43,231 nt of DNA from Candidatus Parepulonipiscium sp. PG-Nuni2H_MBin01 (GCA_001994995.1 MDJM01000058.1:1-43231), one strand, 5' to 3'; shown: positions 19,183 through 28,849, counted from the stretch's first letter. Numbers and translations are program-made. Notes: generated by a model from the sequence alone, not told the origin.

Positions 19183-20946
19183 ATGCGTAAAACGAAAATT
19201 ATATCAACTATTGGGCCAAAAACTAACAGTTTAGAAGCTATTAAGAAAATCATTCTTTCTGGCGCTGATGCAATCCGATTAAACTTCTCTCATGATTCTA
19301 GAGAAAAACATGCGGACACAGCTAGACGTGTAATGCAAGCAAGGGAAGAACTAGGCATTCCTACAGCAATAATATTAGATACTAAAGGCCCTGAAATCCG
19401 TACTAGCGTATTAGCTGGTGGAGAAGATGTTGAATTAGTAGCGGGTAGCACTTTCACTTTAACTACTGATGAAATTGAAGGAGATGCAACAAAAGTTAGC
19501 GTAACTTATCAAGACCTTCCAAAAGATTTAAAAGAAGGCGCAAGAGTCCTAATCGATGATGGATTAATTGAGTTAGTTGTTAAAAGCATAAATGGCAACG
19601 ATGTTGTAACTGAAGTTATTAACGGCGGTCTACTTGGCGAAAGAAAAGGGGTTAACCTTCCTGACGTATTTGTAAACCTTCCAGCTCTAACTGAAAAAGA
19701 CATCGCAGATATTACTTTAGGTGCTGAAGTTGGATTTGACTTTATTGCAGCATCATTTATTAGATGTGCAGCTGACGTAATTGAAATCCGTAAACTATTA
19801 GAAAAAGTTGGCGGCTCTAACATTAGAATTATATCTAAAATTGAAAACCGTGATGGTGTAGATAATATTGATGAAATACTACAAGTTACAGACGCTATTA
19901 TGGTTGCTCGTGGAGATTTAGGGGTTGAAATCCCACCTGAAGAAGTTCCTATTGTGCAAAAAATGCTTATTAGAAAATGTAACGAGCTTGGTAAAATGGT
20001 AGTAACTGCTACTCAAATGCTTGAGTCTATGATTAAAAATCCAAGACCTACTAGAGCAGAAGCTAGTGACGTTGCTAACGCTATTTTCGATGGTACTTCA
20101 GCTATAATGCTATCTGGAGAAACTGCTAAAGGTGATTATCCTTATGAGTCTATCAAAATGATGGTTAGCATTGCAGAAATGGTTGAGAAAACTGATGAGT
20201 TATACAACATGACTTACGATGATTCACTAATTAACTGTATGACAACTGCGATTAGTTTAGCTACGTGCCAAGCGGCTAAAGGGCTGGATGCTACAGCTAT
20301 CATTACAGCTACAAAATCAGGACACACTGTAAGAGCATTATCTAAATTTAAACCAAAAGCTCCAATAGTAGCGTGTACACCAGACAAGAAAACTCAATAC
20401 CAGCTTAACCTAATATGGGGTTGCAAACCTTGCTTAATGAGTGTAGATGCTGGAGCTACTACTGATGAAGTATTTGCGGCTACTATTGCAACTGCTGAAA
20501 AAGAAGGCATTGTAAAAAAAGGTGACGCGGTAGTTATCACAGCTGGAGTACCTATTGGTGGAGCAGGGACTACAAATATATTAAAAGTTCAATATGTAGG
20601 AGATATTTTATCTAGTGGTAAAGGAATTTGTGATGGCGTAGCAGTAGGTACTGCTCGTGTAATTACTGAAATTGACGAGGCTAGCAAAAATTTCACTAAA
20701 GGGGATGTATTAATTGCTCATAGAACTGATGATACGTATTTACCTCTTATGAAGTTAGCAAGCGCAATTGTAGTTGAAGACCATACAAAAGCTGAAAACA
20801 ACCATGCGGTAAAAGTGGGTAAAACAATAGGAGTTCCAGTTGTATATGGAGCAGGAATTGTTACTCAAGCTGTGGAAAATGGATTATCCATTACAGTGGA
20901 CAGCAAAAAAGGGCTAGTATACAGCGGTGTAGTTACACCTCAATAA
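19183..20946 (+). CDS. pyk: Pyruvate kinase with C-terminal PEP-utiliser-like domain
   Basis: This 587-residue enzyme makes pyruvate and ATP from phosphoenolpyruvate. The barrel carries TKIISTIGPKTNSLEAI at the start, LDTKGPEIRT near residues 65-74, the active-site Lys block RIISKIENRDG, and MLESMIKNPRPTRAEASDVA. The core would end near residue 475. The extra 110 residues (GKGICDGVAVGTARVI onward) form the phosphohistidine-like domain found in Bacillus-type enzymes. Its usual TSHAA loop is replaced by ENNHAV, so a His is kept in a changed setting. In Bacillus this domain is not required for catalysis. RBS AAGGAG. Co-transcribed with pfkA, and a terminator follows. Confidence 0.95.
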   Translation: MRKTKIISTIGPKTNSLEAIKKIILSGADAIRLNFSHDSREKHADTARRVMQAREELGIPTAIILDTKGPEIRTSVLAGGEDVELVAGSTFTLTTDEIEGDATKVSVTYQDLPKDLKEGARVLIDDGLIELVVKSINGNDVVTEVINGGLLGERKGVNLPDVFVNLPALTEKDIADITLGAEVGFDFIAASFIRCAADVIEIRKLLEKVGGSNIRIISKIENRDGVDNIDEILQVTDAIMVARGDLGVEIPPEEVPIVQKMLIRKCNELGKMVVTATQMLESMIKNPRPTRAEASDVANAIFDGTSAIMLSGETAKGDYPYESIKMMVSIAEMVEKTDELYNMTYDDSLINCMTTAISLATCQAAKGLDATAIITATKSGHTVRALSKFKPKAPIVACTPDKKTQYQLNLIWGCKPCLMSVDAGATTDEVFAATIATAEKEGIVKKGDAVVITAGVPIGGAGTTNILKVQYVGDILSSGKGICDGVAVGTARVITEIDEASKNFTKGDVLIAHRTDDTYLPLMKLASAIVVEDHTKAENNHAVKVGKTIGVPVVYGAGIVTQAVENGLSITVDSKKGLVYSGVVTPQ

Positions 20947-21158: not shown

Positions 21159-22196
21159 ATGAGATTAATTCCAGTATCACAATTAAGAGTAGACTCAGTA
21201 TTGGCTCTAGATATTATTGACGAACATGCCAAAATACTCCTCGCTAAAGGGCATACATTAAACCAAATGAATTTAAGTAGACTACGTACCACTAATGTTG
21301 CCTCAGTTTATATTACTGATGAATATTGTTTTAATGATAATACAAACTATACCTCACAGCCATCAAATATTTTAAGGCGAGTAATTATAGTTAAACGTCT
21401 AATGAAAATGGTATCAGCAGGTACTACTACAAAAGAAGCAGTGTTTCATACACTTAAAGCTGTATATGAAATGGTAGATGGCTTAGATCAGCAAAAATAT
21501 AGCCTGCGCTTAGTATATGAGCCAAAAAAAATTCTCGTTAACACGTTTGAAGAAAATATTATTTATATTGCAATGATGAGCGCCTTATTTGCCCTTAAGC
21601 TAGGATTTAGCAAAAAAGAAGCTTCATATATATGTTTAGGAGCATTGGTTAGAGACATTGCATTAATATCATATAACTTTCAAGAGCAGGAAATGAACAC
21701 TCCTGCCACTAAAGAACATCCTATAAAAGGTTATAACCATTTAAAAACTAGGTATAATCTACCTGAAGAAGTGCTAGAAATTGTTATCCAACATCAAGAA
21801 ACTTATGACGGCAAAGGTTATCCTTATGGATTAAAAGGTGAACAAATATGTACAGGCGCACGAATTATTGCTATAATAGATATGTACTACAAAATTAAAA
21901 CAACAAATATGAGTAGAACAGCCGCTACATTAGAAGAGGATTTTAAAAGGTGGACAGCACACCTTGACCCTACTTATATTAAAAAATTTTTAGAATTTGT
22001 TAACATATATGATCCAGATACTTTGGTAAAATTAACCAATGGAGACTGTGCAGTAGTTACCAGTAGTAGGCCTATTAATCCATTTCGGCCTCAAATTAAG
22101 ATTGTGAAAAGTGCTAAATTTAATAAAGAAGAAATAATAAATTTATCTGATAGACCAGAATTGCATATTCATCATATATTATATTATATAGATTAA
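21159..22196 (+). CDS. Degenerate HD-GYP domain protein, paralogue 1 of 5
   Basis: The start at ATG 21159 is chosen because AAGGAGGAG lies just before it and all five paralogues begin with MR(L/M)(V/I)PV or a close variant. The product is 345 residues. Residues 1-55 form an N-terminal beta-rich module (LRVDSVLALDIIDEHAKILLAKG, then VASVYITDEY). Residues about 130-240 resemble an HD-GYP cyclic-di-GMP phosphodiesterase domain: IYIAMMS in place of the first His-containing helix, RDIA in place of HDIGK, then HPIKGY and TYDGKGYPYGLKG, and ARIIAIIDMYY. The HHE motif is HQE in this copy only, so a third ligand is lost. A C-terminal module (PDTLVKLTNGDCAVV) follows. Hydrolysis is unlikely; ligand binding or regulation is possible. 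Confidence 0.82.
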   Translation: MRLIPVSQLRVDSVLALDIIDEHAKILLAKGHTLNQMNLSRLRTTNVASVYITDEYCFNDNTNYTSQPSNILRRVIIVKRLMKMVSAGTTTKEAVFHTLKAVYEMVDGLDQQKYSLRLVYEPKKILVNTFEENIIYIAMMSALFALKLGFSKKEASYICLGALVRDIALISYNFQEQEMNTPATKEHPIKGYNHLKTRYNLPEEVLEIVIQHQETYDGKGYPYGLKGEQICTGARIIAIIDMYYKIKTTNMSRTAATLEEDFKRWTAHLDPTYIKKFLEFVNIYDPDTLVKLTNGDCAVVTSSRPINPFRPQIKIVKSAKFNKEEIINLSDRPELHIHHILYYID

Positions 22197-22214
22197 CCAA
22201 AATTATGGTTATAG

Positions 22215-22264
22215 AAAAGTTACTAATTTTGGCTGAAATTACGGTTGTAATTAGTAGCTTTTCT
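22215..22264 (+). terminator. Terminator after HD-GYP paralogue 1
   Basis: AAAAGTTACTAATT (22215-22228) pairs with AATTAGTAGCTTTT (22249-22262) with one G-T pair, followed by T's. Confidence 0.7.
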
Positions 22265-22316
22265 TGATATAATAGGATTACCATATATACGGCTTTATTT
22301 ACGCATTATTAATTAA

Positions 22317-22434
22317 ATTCGATAATACTAACACGTGGATTAACTCGTGAATATCCACAAAATAAGAGTGAGAGCAAAAATAATGATAAAATATTTTTAT
22401 GTAAAAAACTGTACAATATGGATTATTATCGAAT
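22317..22434. repeat. 11-bp inverted repeat upstream of paralogue 2, with a nested hairpin
   Basis: ATTCGATAATA (22317-22327) and TATTATCGAAT (22424-22434) are perfect complements 96 bases apart. GTGGAT (22335-22340) and ATCCAC (22353-22358) pair inside. The right arm ends 48 bases before the start codon. This occupies most of the 286-base gap between paralogues 1 and 2. Confidence 0.5.
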
Positions 22435-22482
22435 ACAATGTATTAGATTATCAATATACAAGAGAAAGGGAGGTAAAAAATT

Positions 22483-23511
22483 ATGAGAATGGTACCAGTA
22501 AGTGAGCTGAGAGTTAATTCGGAATTAGCAATAGACATTGTAGATGAGGAACATAAAGTACTACTAACAAAAGGCCATATTCTAAATCAAATAAATGTGG
22601 ATAGGTTACAATCGACGAACATAGCATCAGTTTATATTACAGATAAGTTTTGTTATAATAATACTCCTACTTATACATCGCAACCCACAAATGTTTTGCG
22701 TAAGGTTGTTACCATAAGAAATGCAATTCATAATGCAGCTCAAGGAATAGAAGCTAATGAAGCTATAGCCAAAGCCTTAAAAGCAGTAAATGAAATAGTT
22801 AGTGAATTAGATAGGCAAAAATACAGTTTAAGAATAGGATATGAGCCTAAAAAAATAGCTTTAAAAGATTTTGATGAACGAACTATATATATAGCGATGA
22901 TGAGTAGTTTATTATCTTTAAAAATAGGATTTGTTAAACAGCAAACATATTTAGTGTGCTTAGGAGCATTAATTAAAGATATTGCCGTAGTTTCTCCTAC
23001 ATTTAAAGGTCAAATAGATGAAAAAAATAAGTTTCACCCAATTAAAGGGTATAGTTATATGAAGGAGCACTATAATTTCCCAGAACCAGTGCTGCAGATT
23101 ATATTACAGCATCATGAGCTATACGATGGAAAAGGGTATCCTTATGGATTAAAAGGTGAAGAGATTTGTCCTGGGGCTAGAATTATAGCCATTATAGAGT
23201 TATATTATAAAATTAAAACCACCCATATGGAAGAAGGGGGTAGTAATTTAGAGCAAGAATTTAACAAATGGGCCTCTCACCTTGACCCAAAATACTTAGA
23301 CGTATTCTTAAAACATGCTAATCTTTTTGAGCCAGATATGTTAGTACAACTTAATAATGGAGATATAGCAGTAGTTACATCTTCACCAACAAATAATCCT
23401 TTTAAACCACGTGTTAAGATTTTAAGAAGTGAAACATATCAAGAAGGTACTATATTAAATTTAGGAGATACGAGGTTAGCAGTATATAGAGTTGTTTATT
23501 ATGTAGATTAA
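22483..23511 (+). CDS. Degenerate HD-GYP domain protein, paralogue 2 of 5
   Basis: This 342-residue protein is closely similar to paralogues 1 and 3 along its full length. In the HD-GYP-like domain Lys165-Asp166 replaces His-Asp, and the first conserved His is missing (TIYIAMMSS). His185-Pro (HPIKGY), His210-His211-Glu212 and the D-GKGYP block (215-220) remain. The Asp that would bind metal in the later ADxYD helix is Glu239 (AIIELYY). Thus about half of the metal ligands survive. The C-terminal module reads PDMLVQLNNGDIAVVTSS and ends VYRVVYYVD. RBS AAAGGGAGG, 9 bases before the ATG. It is its own unit, with a terminator after it. Confidence 0.82.
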   Translation: MRMVPVSELRVNSELAIDIVDEEHKVLLTKGHILNQINVDRLQSTNIASVYITDKFCYNNTPTYTSQPTNVLRKVVTIRNAIHNAAQGIEANEAIAKALKAVNEIVSELDRQKYSLRIGYEPKKIALKDFDERTIYIAMMSSLLSLKIGFVKQQTYLVCLGALIKDIAVVSPTFKGQIDEKNKFHPIKGYSYMKEHYNFPEPVLQIILQHHELYDGKGYPYGLKGEEICPGARIIAIIELYYKIKTTHMEEGGSNLEQEFNKWASHLDPKYLDVFLKHANLFEPDMLVQLNNGDIAVVTSSPTNNPFKPRVKILRSETYQEGTILNLGDTRLAVYRVVYYVD

Positions 23512-23583
23512 TTTATTCCACATATAAAGAATTAATAAATCTAGTTAACAGAATTCTAGATATATTAATATACTACGTAGAGT

Positions 23584-23620
23584 AACTAGCCCAAGTTTCA
23601 CCAAGGCTAGTTTTCTTTTC
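23584..23620 (+). terminator. Terminator after HD-GYP paralogue 2
   Basis: AACTAGCC (23584-23591) and GGCTAGTT (23605-23612) form a perfect 8-bp stem, followed by TTCTTTTC. Confidence 0.75.
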
Positions 23621-23716
23621 ACTAAAATATTATTATACTTTACTCCAATGTATTAATATCATTAAAAATAATAGTTGTATTTAGCAGTTTTCAATTTAAG
23701 AACGGGGGAACCAATT

Positions 23717-24745
23717 ATGAGATTAGTACCAATAGACGAATTAAAAGTTAATAGCGAGCTTGCAATAGATATTCTTGATGAGTATTCTAATGTGTTAATA
23801 GCTAAAGGCCGCATTTTAAATGAAATGAATATAGAACGATTAATTACAACAAATGTGGTTTCAGTGTATATTAAAGACCAGTATTGTTGCAATGATAATG
23901 TACAGTACACATCGGAGCCTTCTAATGTAATAGATAAAGTAGCTATTTTAAAAGATGCAATTTATGCTGCTGCTTGTGGAGAATTAAGAGGTGATGATAT
24001 AGCGTTTGCTTTAAGGACCATTAATCAAACTGTTAGTGAATTGGAAGCGCGAAAGTATACCCAAAAAATTACCTATGAAAGAAATAAAATTAGGGTGGAA
24101 GTATTAGATGAAAAAATGATTTATATTGCAATGATGAGTAGTTTATTTGCACTTAAATTAGGCTTCTCTAAACAACGAACTAGCCTTATATGCTTAGGCG
24201 CTCTACTAAGAGATGTGGTGGCTGTTGTTCCAAAATTTGCTGGCCAAGAGGACTCCTTTAGTAAGCTGCACCCGATAAAAGGTTATAATTATGTAAAAGA
24301 AAAGTATAATTTTCCAGAAGAGGTATTGCAAATTATATTACAACATCATGAGCTTTATGATGGAAAAGGGTTTCCATATGGCCTTAAAGGGAATGAGATT
24401 TGTGAGGGCGCAAGAATAGTTGCGATTATAGATATGTTCTACAAAATCAATACTATGAATATGACTAAAAACAGTAAAACGATGCAAGAAGACTTTATGA
24501 AGTGGACTTCGCATTTAGACCCTATATATTTAGAGCAGTTTTTAAAGCATGTTAGTATGTTCGCTCCAGATACGTTAGTTAAGTTAACAAATGGTGATGT
24601 AGCAGTGGTAATGCCTACTAAAGTATCCAATCCATTTAAGCCTCAAGTTAAAATTATTAGGAGTTACACTTTCCAACCTGGGATATTAATTAACTTGAAT
24701 GAATATCCGGATTTGCACATTTATAGAGTTGTTTATTATGTATAA
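23717..24745 (+). CDS. Degenerate HD-GYP domain protein, paralogue 3 of 5
   Basis: The ATG at 23717 follows GGGGGAA and matches the starts of its paralogues. Longer versions from 23675 have no RBS. The 342-residue product has Arg-Asp (LLRDVVAVV) at the HD position, HPIKGY and an intact HHELYDGKG, but GFP instead of GYP. The late Asp is kept (AIIDMFYKI). It groups with paralogues 1 and 2 by its N-terminus (LKVNSELAIDI). The C-terminal module is PDTLVKLTNGDVAVVMPTK. Two hairpins follow it, at 24766-24803 and 24887-24917. Confidence 0.82.
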   Translation: MRLVPIDELKVNSELAIDILDEYSNVLIAKGRILNEMNIERLITTNVVSVYIKDQYCCNDNVQYTSEPSNVIDKVAILKDAIYAAACGELRGDDIAFALRTINQTVSELEARKYTQKITYERNKIRVEVLDEKMIYIAMMSSLFALKLGFSKQRTSLICLGALLRDVVAVVPKFAGQEDSFSKLHPIKGYNYVKEKYNFPEEVLQIILQHHELYDGKGFPYGLKGNEICEGARIVAIIDMFYKINTMNMTKNSKTMQEDFMKWTSHLDPIYLEQFLKHVSMFAPDTLVKLTNGDVAVVMPTKVSNPFKPQVKIIRSYTFQPGILINLNEYPDLHIYRVVYYV

Positions 24746-24765
24746 CTTCTTGGTATAACAAATGG

Positions 24766-24803
24766 TAGGTCAACATCATGTATATCCAAATGATGTTGGC
24801 CTA
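24766..24803 (+). terminator. Hairpin just after HD-GYP paralogue 3
   Basis: TAGGTCAACATCAT (24766-24779) pairs with ATGATGTTGGCCTA (24790-24803) with one mismatch. The following sequence is AT-rich but has no long T-run, so termination may be partial. Confidence 0.5.
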
Positions 24804-24886
24804 ATTATAATTACCGTTTTATACAATTAACGACTAACTTACACATTTAAAAATGTTTTTATTCTTGTAGATATTATACAATTATG

Positions 24887-24917
24887 ACTAGCCAAATTTT
24901 GTTGGCTAGTTTTTTTT
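24887..24917 (+). terminator. Strong terminator in the gap after paralogue 3
   Basis: ACTAGCCAA (24887-24895) and TTGGCTAGT (24902-24910) form a perfect stem followed by eight T's. Its core ACTAGCC/GGCTAGT is the same as in the terminator after paralogue 2. Confidence 0.85.
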
Positions 24918-24940
24918 GGCTGTAAATGTGTAAATTTAGC

Positions 24941-24969
24941 TTGTATATATCAATTTTTCTTGGTATAAT
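24941..24969 (+). promoter_or_regulatory. Promoter for HD-GYP paralogue 4
   Basis: TTGTAT (24941-24946), a 17-base spacer and TATAAT (24964-24969). Transcription from it would give a leader of about 215 bases before paralogue 4. Confidence 0.6.
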
Positions 24970-25125
24970 ATTACTAGCTGAAAATCAGTTACATAGTCAA
25001 GAAGACTCTCTTAGCATTGTACATATATTGAGGTGTAGAATATTAGGCCAACCTAATGCATATACTTGTGAGGTTGGTAGGGACCACAAATTACCATTAA
25101 TTTATTAATTATAGGAGATGCGGCT

Positions 25126-25212
25126 ATGAAGTTATTATCAGAAAATGAACTAAAGCTATGTAATACCATAGTACGAAAGGAGATTAAGCATGAGATTAGT
25201 ACCAGTAACTAA
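25126..25212 (+). CDS. Possible 28-residue leader ORF overlapping paralogue 4
   Basis: An ATG with a good RBS (AGGAGA, 25113-25118) opens a frame whose product begins MKLLSENELKLCNTIVRKEI and stops inside the fourth paralogue, 22 bases past its start codon and in another frame. The opening is similar to that of the paralogues (MRLVPVTKLKLDTKIALDI), so it may be the stub of a sixth copy, reused or not as a coupling leader. It is too short for a firm claim. Confidence 0.35.
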   Translation: MKLLSENELKLCNTIVRKEIKHEISTSN

Positions 25213-26221
25213 GCTAAAGCTTGATACTAAAATTGCACTTGATATCAGAGATGAGCATGCTAATTTATTAATTACTAAAGAGAATATTATTACTCCCCAT
25301 AATTTAAAACGCTTGCGTAATTCCAATGTAAAAGCAGTTTATATCAAGGATAAGTATTGCTTTGATTATGCACCAGATACATCTGATCCATCTAAGATGT
25401 TTGAGCAAGTTGTAGCACTAAAAAAAGCTATTGAAAATGCTATGACAAACAAATCTACAAGTGAATCTATAACGGATGCTTTAAAAGCTATCCGAGTTAT
25501 TGTTAACGAGTTAGATAAGCAGAAGTATTGTTCAAAAATTTCTTATGAACCACAGAAATTGGATATAGCAGATGAATTTGGAGAAAAAACGGTCTATGTT
25601 GCTATTATGAGTAGTTTATTTGCATTAAAATTAGGATTTAGTAAGCAAGAAACGTACCTTATTTGTTTAGGAGCGCTACTTAAAGATGTTGCATTAATTG
25701 TACCAGAACTTAAAAAAACTGTTGGGGCTGCTAGTAAAATTCATCCAACTACAGGTTATGAATACCTGATTAAAAATTTTAATTTCCCCCAAGAGGTATT
25801 AGATATTGTGCAGCAACATCATGAACTTTATAACGGAAAAGGCTATCCTAATTGTCTAAAAGGTGATAGAATTTATGCGGGGGCAAGAATTATTGCTATA
25901 ATAGATATGTTTTATAAGGTTAGCAATAATTACTATGAGCAAGGTAGCAAAACTTTAGAAGAAGGTTTTTTGAAGTTTAGTGGTTATCTTGATCCTTATT
26001 TTTTACAGAAGTTTTGGGGCTATTCTCATATTTTTTCGCCAGATATGTTAGTTAAATTAACTAACAGTGATGTTGCGGTGGTTATGTCTGCTCGCAGCTT
26101 TAATCCGTTTCAACCACAAGTTAGGATTTTAAAAAGCAATACTTACCAATCAGGAACTCTACTTAATTTATTTGAAATACCGCATTTAAACATATCTAGA
26201 GTAATTCATTATGTTGAGTAG
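25190..26221 (+). CDS. Degenerate HD-GYP domain protein, paralogue 4 of 5
   Basis: The product is 343 residues. With paralogue 5 it forms a sub-pair that shares KLDTKIA(L/M)DIRDEH and NLLITK near the N-terminus. The HD position is Lys-Asp (LLKDVALIV). HP is kept (HPTTGY), and the HHE motif is intact, but the following Asp is Asn (YNGKGYP), and the usual GLKG is CLKG. The late Asp remains (AIIDMFYKV). The C-terminal module is PDMLVKLTNSDVAVVMSAR. RBS GAAAGGAG lies 9 bases before the ATG, inside the small ORF at 25126. A GAAA-loop hairpin terminator follows. Confidence 0.82.
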   Translation: MRLVPVTKLKLDTKIALDIRDEHANLLITKENIITPHNLKRLRNSNVKAVYIKDKYCFDYAPDTSDPSKMFEQVVALKKAIENAMTNKSTSESITDALKAIRVIVNELDKQKYCSKISYEPQKLDIADEFGEKTVYVAIMSSLFALKLGFSKQETYLICLGALLKDVALIVPELKKTVGAASKIHPTTGYEYLIKNFNFPQEVLDIVQQHHELYNGKGYPNCLKGDRIYAGARIIAIIDMFYKVSNNYYEQGSKTLEEGFLKFSGYLDPYFLQKFWGYSHIFSPDMLVKLTNSDVAVVMSARSFNPFQPQVRILKSNTYQSGTLLNLFEIPHLNISRVIHYVE

Positions 26222-26228
26222 GAAACAA

Positions 26229-26252
26229 TGGCCGACGAAAGTCGGCTGTTTT
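26229..26252 (+). terminator. Terminator after HD-GYP paralogue 4
   Basis: GCCGAC (26231-26236) and GTCGGC (26241-26246) enclose a GAAA tetraloop, followed by TGTTTT. Confidence 0.8.
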
Positions 26253-26286
26253 AATACATTTAGAAAATGAAGAAAGGGGTTTGATT

Positions 26287-27327
26287 ATGAGATTAATACC
26301 AGTATCTGAATTGAAGCTTGATACTAAAATAGCTATGGATATTAGAGATGAGCATCATAATTTATTAATTACTAAAGATACTTTAGTAAATCCGCAAAGT
26401 TTACAACGTTTAAAGAATTCCAATGTAATAGCAGTATATATTAAAGACCAGTATTGTTATAATAATTTGGATATTCCATATACTTCAGATTCAACTGTAA
26501 TGTTAGAGAAGGTGAATACATTACAAGTAGCCATTACTAATACAATAAAAGGGGGGGTAGCTGCTCATGACGCTATGGTGGATGCATTAACAGAAGTACG
26601 AGCTATAGTTAATGAATTAGATGATCATAGGTATGCTCTTAGAATTGCGTATGAGCCGTCTAAGATTTCTTCTTTAAATGTTATCAGCGAAAAAACTGTA
26701 TATATAGCTATGATGAGTAGTTTGTTGGCATTAAAGCTAGGATATAGTAGACAAGAGACGTATAGTATATTTTTAGGTGCGTTATTGAAGGATGTGGCTT
26801 CTATTGTGCCTGTATTAGGGGATACAGTTAATTTAAATAGTAAACAACATCCAATAATAGGTTGTACGTATATTAAAGATAATTTTGAGTTTCCACCGGA
26901 GGTTGCTAGGATTATATTAGAGCATCATGAGTTGTATGATGGAAAAGGTTATCCTTACAATTTAAGGGGAGATGAAATTTATGGTGGTACTAGGATAATC
27001 TCTATTATAGAAGCTTTTTATAAAATTAATTCTACTACTATGGCTAAAGGTAGTAAGGCGTTGCAGGAGGATTTTAAAAATTGGACCCCACATCTTGACC
27101 CAAGGTTTTTAAAGAAGTTTTTAAATCATACTAATGTATTTCCGCCAGATACTCTTGTTAGATTAACAAATGGTGATGTTGGAGTTATAATGGGAACAAG
27201 AACAACTTCACCATTTAGGCCACAAATTAGGATTTTAAAAAGTGTGACTTATCCATTAGGGACTATGATAAATTTAGCTTCTTTGCCACAGCTTCATATA
27301 TATAGATTGATGGATTATTTTGATTAG
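26287..27327 (+). CDS. Degenerate HD-GYP domain protein, paralogue 5 of 5
   Basis: The ATG at 26287 is preferred over a TTG two codons earlier, because it matches the other copies and follows AAAGGGG. The 346-residue product has Lys-Asp (LLKDVASIV) at the HD position, HPIIGC (Cys for the usual Tyr) and an intact HHELYDGKGYP. The late Asp is Glu (SIIEAFYKI), as in paralogue 2. The C-terminal module is PDTLVRLTNGDVGVIMGTR. Its coding strand is markedly G/T-rich, like the ktr genes that follow. The terminator lies just after the stop. Confidence 0.82.
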   Translation: MRLIPVSELKLDTKIAMDIRDEHHNLLITKDTLVNPQSLQRLKNSNVIAVYIKDQYCYNNLDIPYTSDSTVMLEKVNTLQVAITNTIKGGVAAHDAMVDALTEVRAIVNELDDHRYALRIAYEPSKISSLNVISEKTVYIAMMSSLLALKLGYSRQETYSIFLGALLKDVASIVPVLGDTVNLNSKQHPIIGCTYIKDNFEFPPEVARIILEHHELYDGKGYPYNLRGDEIYGGTRIISIIEAFYKINSTTMAKGSKALQEDFKNWTPHLDPRFLKKFLNHTNVFPPDTLVRLTNGDVGVIMGTRTTSPFRPQIRILKSVTYPLGTMINLASLPQLHIYRLMDYFD

Positions 27328-27334
27328 TTTTTAC

Positions 27335-27361
27335 AACGCGCGAATCTCGGGCGTTTTTTTT
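27335..27361 (+). terminator. Terminator after HD-GYP paralogue 5
   Basis: AACGCGCGA (27335-27343) pairs with TCGGGCGTT (27347-27355) with one mismatch and is followed by T's. Confidence 0.8.
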
Positions 27362-27451
27362 ATTGCAAATTTTGGATACGTATATATGTTATATTTTTTT
27401 TAATGCAAGCAATACTAAAATTAATATGTTATTAATAAGGAAGGTGGTTTA

Positions 27452-28849
27452 ATGGAAAAAGAAGTAGACGGTTTAGGTACAAAAAGCAAATTAGGACCAG
27501 CGCATGTATTAGTTTTTGGCTTTTTAGGTATTATTGTTATAGGAACTGTGTTGTTAATGTTGCCAATTAGTTCAAATGCTGGTATTGTTACTCCACTTAT
27601 TGATGCATTATTTACTGCAACTTCGGCTGTGTGTGTAACTGGTTTAGTAGTACAAAATACGTTGGAGTATTGGTCTTTGTTTGGTAAGATGGTTATTATT
27701 ATATGTATTCAGATTGGCGGGCTTGGGTTTATGACACTTGTAAGCATTATATTTATGGTAATGGGTAAGCGAATTACTTTAAAGAATAGATTAGTGATGC
27801 AGGAGGCGTTAAGTTTTAATACGCAAGCTGGAGTTGTTAGATTTACTCAGCTGATTGTAAAATTAACTTTTTTTATCGAAGGTTTAGGTGCTTTATTTTT
27901 AAGTTTTGTTTTTATACCTGAGTACGGATTAGGTAAAGGTATTTGTTATTCCATATTCCATTCAATTTCAGCGTTTTGTAATGCTGGTTTTGACATTATA
28001 GGGCAAAATAGCCTAATGCCTTATGTTGGAAATGAATGGTTTAATCTAGCAATCATGTGGTTAATTATATGCGGAGGGCTTGGTTATACTGTTTGGCTAG
28101 ATACTTATCAGGCGTTAAAATTGAAATTGAGTTCAGCAGAGCATTTTACTTGGAGGCAGGCTTTTTATAAGTTATCATTACATACGAAACTTGTATGGAT
28201 TATTACTTTATTGCTAATTTTTGGAGCCTTTATATTTTTCTTTGTTGCTGAGTTTAACAATCCGGCTACGTTAGGGCCACTATCGTTGATGGATAAAATT
28301 ACTGCTGCAATGTTCCAAGCTGTTTCTCCTAGAACTGCTGGATTTAATACTATTTCTTTATCTGATTTAACTACAGGTTCACAGCTTGCTACTATATTTT
28401 TGATGTTTATAGGCGGTTCACCAGCTGGGACTGCAGGGGGTATAAAGACTGTTACAGTGGGTGTTTTAGTAATTTGTGCCTTTTCTGTTTTAAAAGGAAA
28501 TCATACTGTAGTTGTATTTAGGAAGAAGATTGCTATTGAACAAGTATTGAAAGCTTTGACTGTTATTATTATAGCCATTCTTATTGTATCAGTAATGCTT
28601 GCTATTTTAACTTTTACTGAAGATGCAACTTTTATGGAGTTGTTATTTGAAACTGTTTCAGCATTTGCTACAGTGGGACTTACATTAGGTATTACAGGGG
28701 GATTAAGTTTTATTGGCAAGATAATTATTATAGCGCTTATGTTTATTGGTAGGGTAGGACTTATCACTATTGGGGTTGCATTAGTGGTTACTCAGTCAAA
28801 AAATCCTTCTGGAATACAATATCCTGAGGAGAAGGTATTGGTAGGTTAG
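27452..28849 (+). CDS. ktrB: Potassium uptake channel subunit, TrkH/KtrB family
   Basis: This 465-residue membrane protein has the four-fold repeated membrane-pore-membrane plan of KtrB. Pore loops are seen at TATSAVCVTGLVVQ (near residue 51), SISAFCNAGFDIIGQNSL (near 172), SPRTAGFNTISLSDL (near 293) and SAFATVGLTLGITGG (near 402). Each holds the conserved Gly of the selectivity filter. Length is that of KtrB rather than the longer TrkH. The cytosolic regulator ktrA follows 88 bases downstream, completing a Na+-linked K+ uptake system. RBS AAGGAAGGTGG. Confidence 0.93.
   Translation: MEKEVDGLGTKSKLGPAHVLVFGFLGIIVIGTVLLMLPISSNAGIVTPLIDALFTATSAVCVTGLVVQNTLEYWSLFGKMVIIICIQIGGLGFMTLVSIIFMVMGKRITLKNRLVMQEALSFNTQAGVVRFTQLIVKLTFFIEGLGALFLSFVFIPEYGLGKGICYSIFHSISAFCNAGFDIIGQNSLMPYVGNEWFNLAIMWLIICGGLGYTVWLDTYQALKLKLSSAEHFTWRQAFYKLSLHTKLVWIITLLLIFGAFIFFFVAEFNNPATLGPLSLMDKITAAMFQAVSPRTAGFNTISLSDLTTGSQLATIFLMFIGGSPAGTAGGIKTVTVGVLVICAFSVLKGNHTVVVFRKKIAIEQVLKALTVIIIAILIVSVMLAILTFTEDATFMELLFETVSAFATVGLTLGITGGLSFIGKIIIIALMFIGRVGLITIGVALVVTQSKNPSGIQYPEEKVLVG

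Follow-up and report, generated by a model that had tools for sequence, protein, structure and literature searches.

In the active HD-GYP phosphodiesterase PmGH, H189 is a ligand of the H site, E185 bridges the M and H sites, D222 bridges the G and M sites, and K225 stabilizes the metal centre; the changes H189A, H221A and K225A each abolish activity (PMC4159591). When cyclic di-GMP (c-di-GMP) is bound, the PmGH monomer carries iron at the G site only, beside the GYP loop, and guanine is gripped by R314 and K317, with K235 of loop L7/8 contributing a contact through its main chain (PMC4159591). Bd1817 of Bdellovibrio has no c-di-GMP phosphodiesterase activity (PMC4159591), and PA2572 of Pseudomonas aeruginosa, a YN-GYP protein, shows no detectable c-di-GMP hydrolysis, yet is regulatory (PMC3411652). 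DvhD of Desulfovibrio vulgaris, in which SQ replaces HD and MN replaces HH, binds c-di-GMP (∼99 nM) without cleaving it, and this binding depends on R650 and Y652/R653 (PMC13090378). Here we describe an array of five tandem genes for degenerate HD-GYP proteins in a 43,231-nucleotide stretch of the Candidatus Parepulonipiscium sp. PG-Nuni2H_MBin01 genome (GCA_001994995.1, MDJM01000058.1:1-43231; the window). By alignment, these proteins and the other members of their clade have lost the catalytic (H/M) side of the metal centre and kept the residues of its GYP side.

The array lies on the plus strand between pyk (19183 to 20946) and a ktrB/trkH-like K+ transporter gene, named by resemblance (27452 to 28849, same strand). 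Its five open reading frames are intact and encode 342 to 347 amino acids (aa), as the first-pass annotation had proposed: copy 1 (21159 to 22196, 345 aa), copy 2 (22483 to 23511, 342 aa), copy 3 (23714 to 24745, 343 aa), copy 4 (25190 to 26221, 343 aa) and copy 5 (26284 to 27327, 347 aa). The paralogues are 45 to 54% identical to copy 1, and all five pass the Pfam cut-offs for HD_5 and HD; no PAS, REC or GAF domain was matched by Pfam in these short proteins. Membership in the NosR family was rejected, the NCBIfam matches scoring 52 to 74 bits against a 400-bit cut-off. An AlphaFold model of copy 3 (predicted local distance difference test score, 84.9; predicted template modelling score, 0.85) has the HD-GYP fold. 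Its best match among solved structures was Bd1817 (Z 19.3, root mean square deviation 3.0 over 201 residues), and it also matched PmGH (Z 15.2), DvhD (Z 14.2) and PA4781 (Z 14.0).

To locate the losses, we aligned PmGH with 34 degenerate family members and with 36 relatives that retain H189, here called canonical; residue numbers are those of PmGH. His was found at position 189 in none of the 34 members, and array copies 1 to 5 have Asn, Arg, Lys, Lys and Lys there. At position 221, the His of the HD dyad (H221 and D222), the family has Lys (17 members), Arg (16) or Gln (1); the array has Arg, Lys, Arg, Lys and Lys with the Asp kept, so that the dyad is incomplete in every copy. The Lys of the DIGK motif (K225) is gone from the clade, the array included, and the Gly two positions after D222 is no longer invariant. 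The first-pass annotation had described this combination (no first His, Lys/Arg-Asp for HD, no DIGK Lys, core kept), and it was borne out in all five copies.

The other side of the site is conserved. D222 and H250 are each kept in 33 of 34 members, H276 in 32, and E278 and G284 in all; among the 343 columns they rank 10th, 3rd, 15th, 4th and 5th in conservation, respectively. The GxG(Y/F)P loop is likewise among the most conserved columns. Every array copy has the HP, H(H/Q)E and GKG(Y/F)P core, the HHExxDGxGYP motif appearing as H(H/Q)E-x-Y-(D/N)-GKG-(Y/F)-P with both Gly residues invariant. Position 277 is more variable (His in 25 members, Glu in 6, Gln in 2), and copy 1 has one of the two Gln residues; copies 2 to 5 thus hold the full GYP-side set of D222, H250, H276 and H277. 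Position 305 is Asp or Glu in 31 of 34 members, with Glu in copies 2 and 5. Read against the PmGH site map, these substitutions indicate that the side proposed for hydrolysis has been lost and the surroundings of the GYP loop kept. Roughly half of the bimetal ligands had been reported as gone from each copy; the loss stands, but it falls on a single side of the metal centre and is not a random half.

Continued phosphodiesterase activity from an atypical site could still be imagined, given the intact fold and HHE...GYP core and the precedent of RpfG, which lacks the equivalents of E185 and H189 (PMC4159591). However, H189, H221 and K225 have been lost together here, when an Ala change at any one of them suffices to abolish PmGH activity. 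A conserved His that might restore a di-metal site was also looked for, and none was found among the clade columns, so there is no sign at the sequence level of a substitute second metal site. We consider retained activity very improbable, and c-di-GMP phosphodiesterase function has very probably been lost.

What occupies the emptied side is specific to the clade: Tyr at the R192 position (29/34), Tyr or Phe at the D308 position (33/34) and the Lys or Arg at H221. These new residues look like rebuilding rather than decay. A second family of degenerate HD-GYP-like proteins in the same genomes shows the mirror-image loss. It is of the type of a distant protein encoded on another contig (C83) of the host genome and is represented at L011:3791-4768 (minus strand), L202 (two genes) and L203; it keeps H189, H221 and D222, whereas H250, the leading His of HHE and the Tyr of GYP have disappeared, with K225 lost in the L011 member and kept in those of L202 and L203.

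The 34 degenerate proteins come from 13 genomes and form one side of a branch with support of 100/100, which is consistent with a single origin, and all eight copies of the host genome fall among them. The loss of catalysis that had been suspected for the array therefore extends to the whole clade. Its N- and C-terminal modules are common to the degenerate copies and the canonical clostridial relatives, with columns conserved in both groups. Orthologue pairs gave ratios of nonsynonymous to synonymous substitution (dN/dS) of 0.12 to 0.38 by a simple Nei-Gojobori estimate in which dS is partly saturated. Purifying selection on the family is thus supported, in line with the intact reading frames and conserved core noted earlier. 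Decaying, functionless relics of a former enzyme array would account for the fragments that occur (one of 131 aa at L093) and for a copy in one genome that lacks the GYP-side residues, but all eight host copies are intact, dN/dS lies far below 1, and the same residues are conserved even though pairs of members average just 33% identity. The selection data already contradict this explanation, and we regard it as scarcely credible.

If the proteins no longer cleave c-di-GMP, they might still bind it, and the first-pass annotation had proposed cyclic-dinucleotide receptors, among other roles. A metal-independent receptor for c-di-GMP or 3'3'-cyclic GMP-AMP, in which binding in the cleft alters dimerization, has a precedent in DvhD, and both the structural match of copy 3 to DvhD and the wealth of c-di-GMP enzymes in the host genome fit it. 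In our alignment R650 and Y652/R653 of DvhD, on which its binding depends, fall on an R-x-Y-R clamp after D305 that is present in 23 of 36 canonical relatives and in none of the 34 degenerate members. Loop L7/8 is also about 9 residues shorter in the degenerate family (∼18 versus 27). Given the missing clamp, the shortened loop and the reliance of DvhD on its clamp, binding of c-di-GMP in a known mode is doubtful. The residues retained are moreover the reverse of those in DvhD, since metal residues are kept and the clamp is lost, and the family is present in one genome described below (G005) in which no GGDEF domain was detected. A receptor of the DvhD kind is accordingly unlikely in our judgment, and the case for a simple cyclic-dinucleotide receptor is weaker than the earlier proposal implied.

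We then considered the genomic setting. The host genome (2.7 Mb, 88 contigs, 95.6% complete) belongs to a gut-dwelling relative of Candidatus Epulonipiscium, and a profile search with the five copies named Candidatus Epulonipiscium viviparus, Parepulonipiscium and other Epulopiscium bins as relatives carrying the family. Because pyk and ktrB are direct neighbors in eight relatives, with no array between them, the array is, on this comparison, an insertion between these genes in the host lineage. The adjacency of ktrB had hinted at control by cyclic di-AMP; this idea was dropped, as the junction is array-free in those eight relatives and other copies lie elsewhere. Three additional copies in the same genome lie outside the array: contig C3 carries a single one and C60 a tandem pair. 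An orthologue of copy 5 from elsewhere in Candidatus Parepulonipiscium (L013) is 73% identical. Tandem sets also recur in relatives, with three copies within ∼5.5 kb in G004 and two each in G007, G017 and G005, so the suggested expansion of the family is upheld. In E. viviparus, a third tandem copy is represented by a 131-aa fragment (L093:8861-9253, minus strand) beside two intact copies; the fragment and the neighboring copy begin identically, which points either to a duplication of recent date or to an artefact of assembly. Genes resembling mutL, mutS and miaB adjoin family members in a Parepulonipiscium bin (L094:4706-8656) and in EpuloA1 (L100:632-7703), and the two neighborhoods differ in orientation.

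Counted as search-based matches, the host genome has 37 GGDEF domains (the highest number among 41 genomes), 20 EAL domains and 2 PilZ domains. In a scripted readout, most of the motifs were GGDEF or SGDEF and EALIR or EALVR, so c-di-GMP synthesis and EAL-type degradation look intact from their sequences. About 13 GGDEF or GGDEF-EAL genes are clustered within 38 kb at L169 and L170 (G000:C41:1-38000). No HD-GYP protein with a complete metal site was found among the matches inspected in the host genome or in the giant-bacterium genomes examined; in the host, c-di-GMP degradation can therefore rest on EAL domains. The orthologue of the C3 copy adjoins PilZ genes in four genomes (G007, G011, G017 and G020), followed in three of them by an EAL-domain gene.

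We propose that the array genes encode HD-GYP-derived pseudoenzymes, a subfamily of the Epulopiscium/Cellulosilyticum lineage that has one origin and acts as noncatalytic regulators of the c-di-GMP/PilZ network. A regulatory, noncatalytic role is likely; to the proposal as a whole we give an even chance. Of the metal residues, those on the H and M sides (H189, H221 and K225) have been lost, and phosphodiesterase activity very probably with them. The retained set of three His and one Asp could still hold one metal that stiffens the GYP loop, and the Lys/Arg at the HD His, with the aromatics at the R192 and D308 positions, may fill the emptied half. Gated by a ligand or a partner, the fold could work as a switch for tuning PilZ, GGDEF or EAL proteins, each copy perhaps with a partner of its own and repeated tandem duplication supplying the copies.

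Several observations weigh against this proposal. The strongest argument comes from Epulopiscium sp. Nele67-Bin005 (G005; L106 and L107), an 89% complete genome in which no GGDEF, EAL or PilZ match was found. It nevertheless has three clade members, along with flagellin genes, so not every family member can need c-di-GMP; one of the three has also lost the GYP-side residues. Copy number does not track the number of GGDEF domains either (one copy with 10 GGDEF in G011, four copies with 5 GGDEF in G004), and the five-gene array itself has no PilZ or GGDEF neighbors. That H250, H276 and H277 make up one metal site, finally, we infer from their position by the GYP loop.

The persistence of the family in G005 would be easier to explain if the proteins were receptors or enzymes for another small molecule, with a single metal at D222, H250, H276 and H277 and no link to c-di-GMP. 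The pattern of four kept metal residues and a lost nucleotide clamp would suit such a role, as would Glu, a possible ligand, in place of H277 in 6 of 34 members. On the other hand, no conserved neighbor points to a substrate, and the classical H...HD...D metal set, which characterizes the mononuclear HD phosphatases known so far, is what the family has lost. This alternative is improbable as we see it, though well above the still-active enzyme. A bolder version is similarly speculative: the proteins would form a new class of one-metal regulators, with half of the HD-GYP metal centre dismantled and refilled with Lys/Arg and aromatics; in the giant-bacterium lineage they would have taken the place of every HD-GYP phosphodiesterase, and they would sense some molecule that is not c-di-GMP.

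Each array gene is likely to be terminated separately, as had been suggested, because a terminator-like hairpin with a T-run follows every copy on the plus strand: at 22212 to 22266 (copy 1, z −6.9), 23580 to 23620 (copy 2, z −3.3), 24886 to 24919 (copy 3, z −3.8), 26227 to 26256 (copy 4, z −4.7) and, more weakly, 27335 to 27363 (copy 5, z −1.8). Those after copies 3 and 4 also appeared in a simple terminator scan, which on its own found 3 against 2.5 expected; a promoter scan was little above chance (47 found, 39 expected). Rfam gave no match in the window at E values up to 1, neither inside nor between the array genes, and riboswitch control of the array was rejected on this basis. A genome search for c-di-GMP-I riboswitches retrieved nothing, but its control sequences were silent as well. 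The spacer between copies 3 and 4 (24745 to 25190) is long, at 444 bp, and has a possible short leader open reading frame near 25127 and no Rfam match.

Catalytically dead HD-GYP proteins have rarely been characterized, and here they make up a clearly delimited family that arose once, has a defined half-site and has repeatedly expanded in tandem. The host lineage is that of the giant Epulopiscium bacteria, whose signaling is scarcely studied; our literature search found no paper tying Epulopiscium to HD-GYP. The family enables a clear test of whether a GYP-side metal site alone is enough for control by a ligand or partner, and it cautions against scoring such genes as c-di-GMP phosphodiesterases in genome surveys.

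Compared with the active phosphodiesterases PmGH (4MCW) and PA4781 (4R8Z), the array family shares the fold, the HHExxDGxGYP loop, D222, H250, H276 and mostly H277. It differs from them in lacking H189, H221, K225 and the guanine clamp, in its shorter L7/8 claw, and in having Lys/Arg for the HD His and Tyr at the R192 and D308 positions. DvhD (9RBZ) is, like the array family as judged from its sequences, a degenerate, noncatalytic HD-GYP fold, but the two are opposites: DvhD has lost HD and HH and kept R-x-Y-R, whereas in the array family the clamp is missing and HH, H250 and D222 remain. DvhD is also membrane bound, with dCache and PAS domains, in contrast to the short array proteins. PA2572 resembles the array family in the replacement of its HD motif; it differs in its receiver domain and chemoreceptor partner, and tandem arrays are not described for it (PMC3411652). 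Bd1817 (3TM8), the best structural match to copy 3, including part of the N-terminal module, keeps its metal centre and lacks the GYP Tyr, while the array family mostly keeps Tyr or Phe there and lacks the HD His. The degenerate HD-GYP protein is thus a known kind; the half-site pattern, the single origin and the expansion in the Epulopiscium lineage are new.

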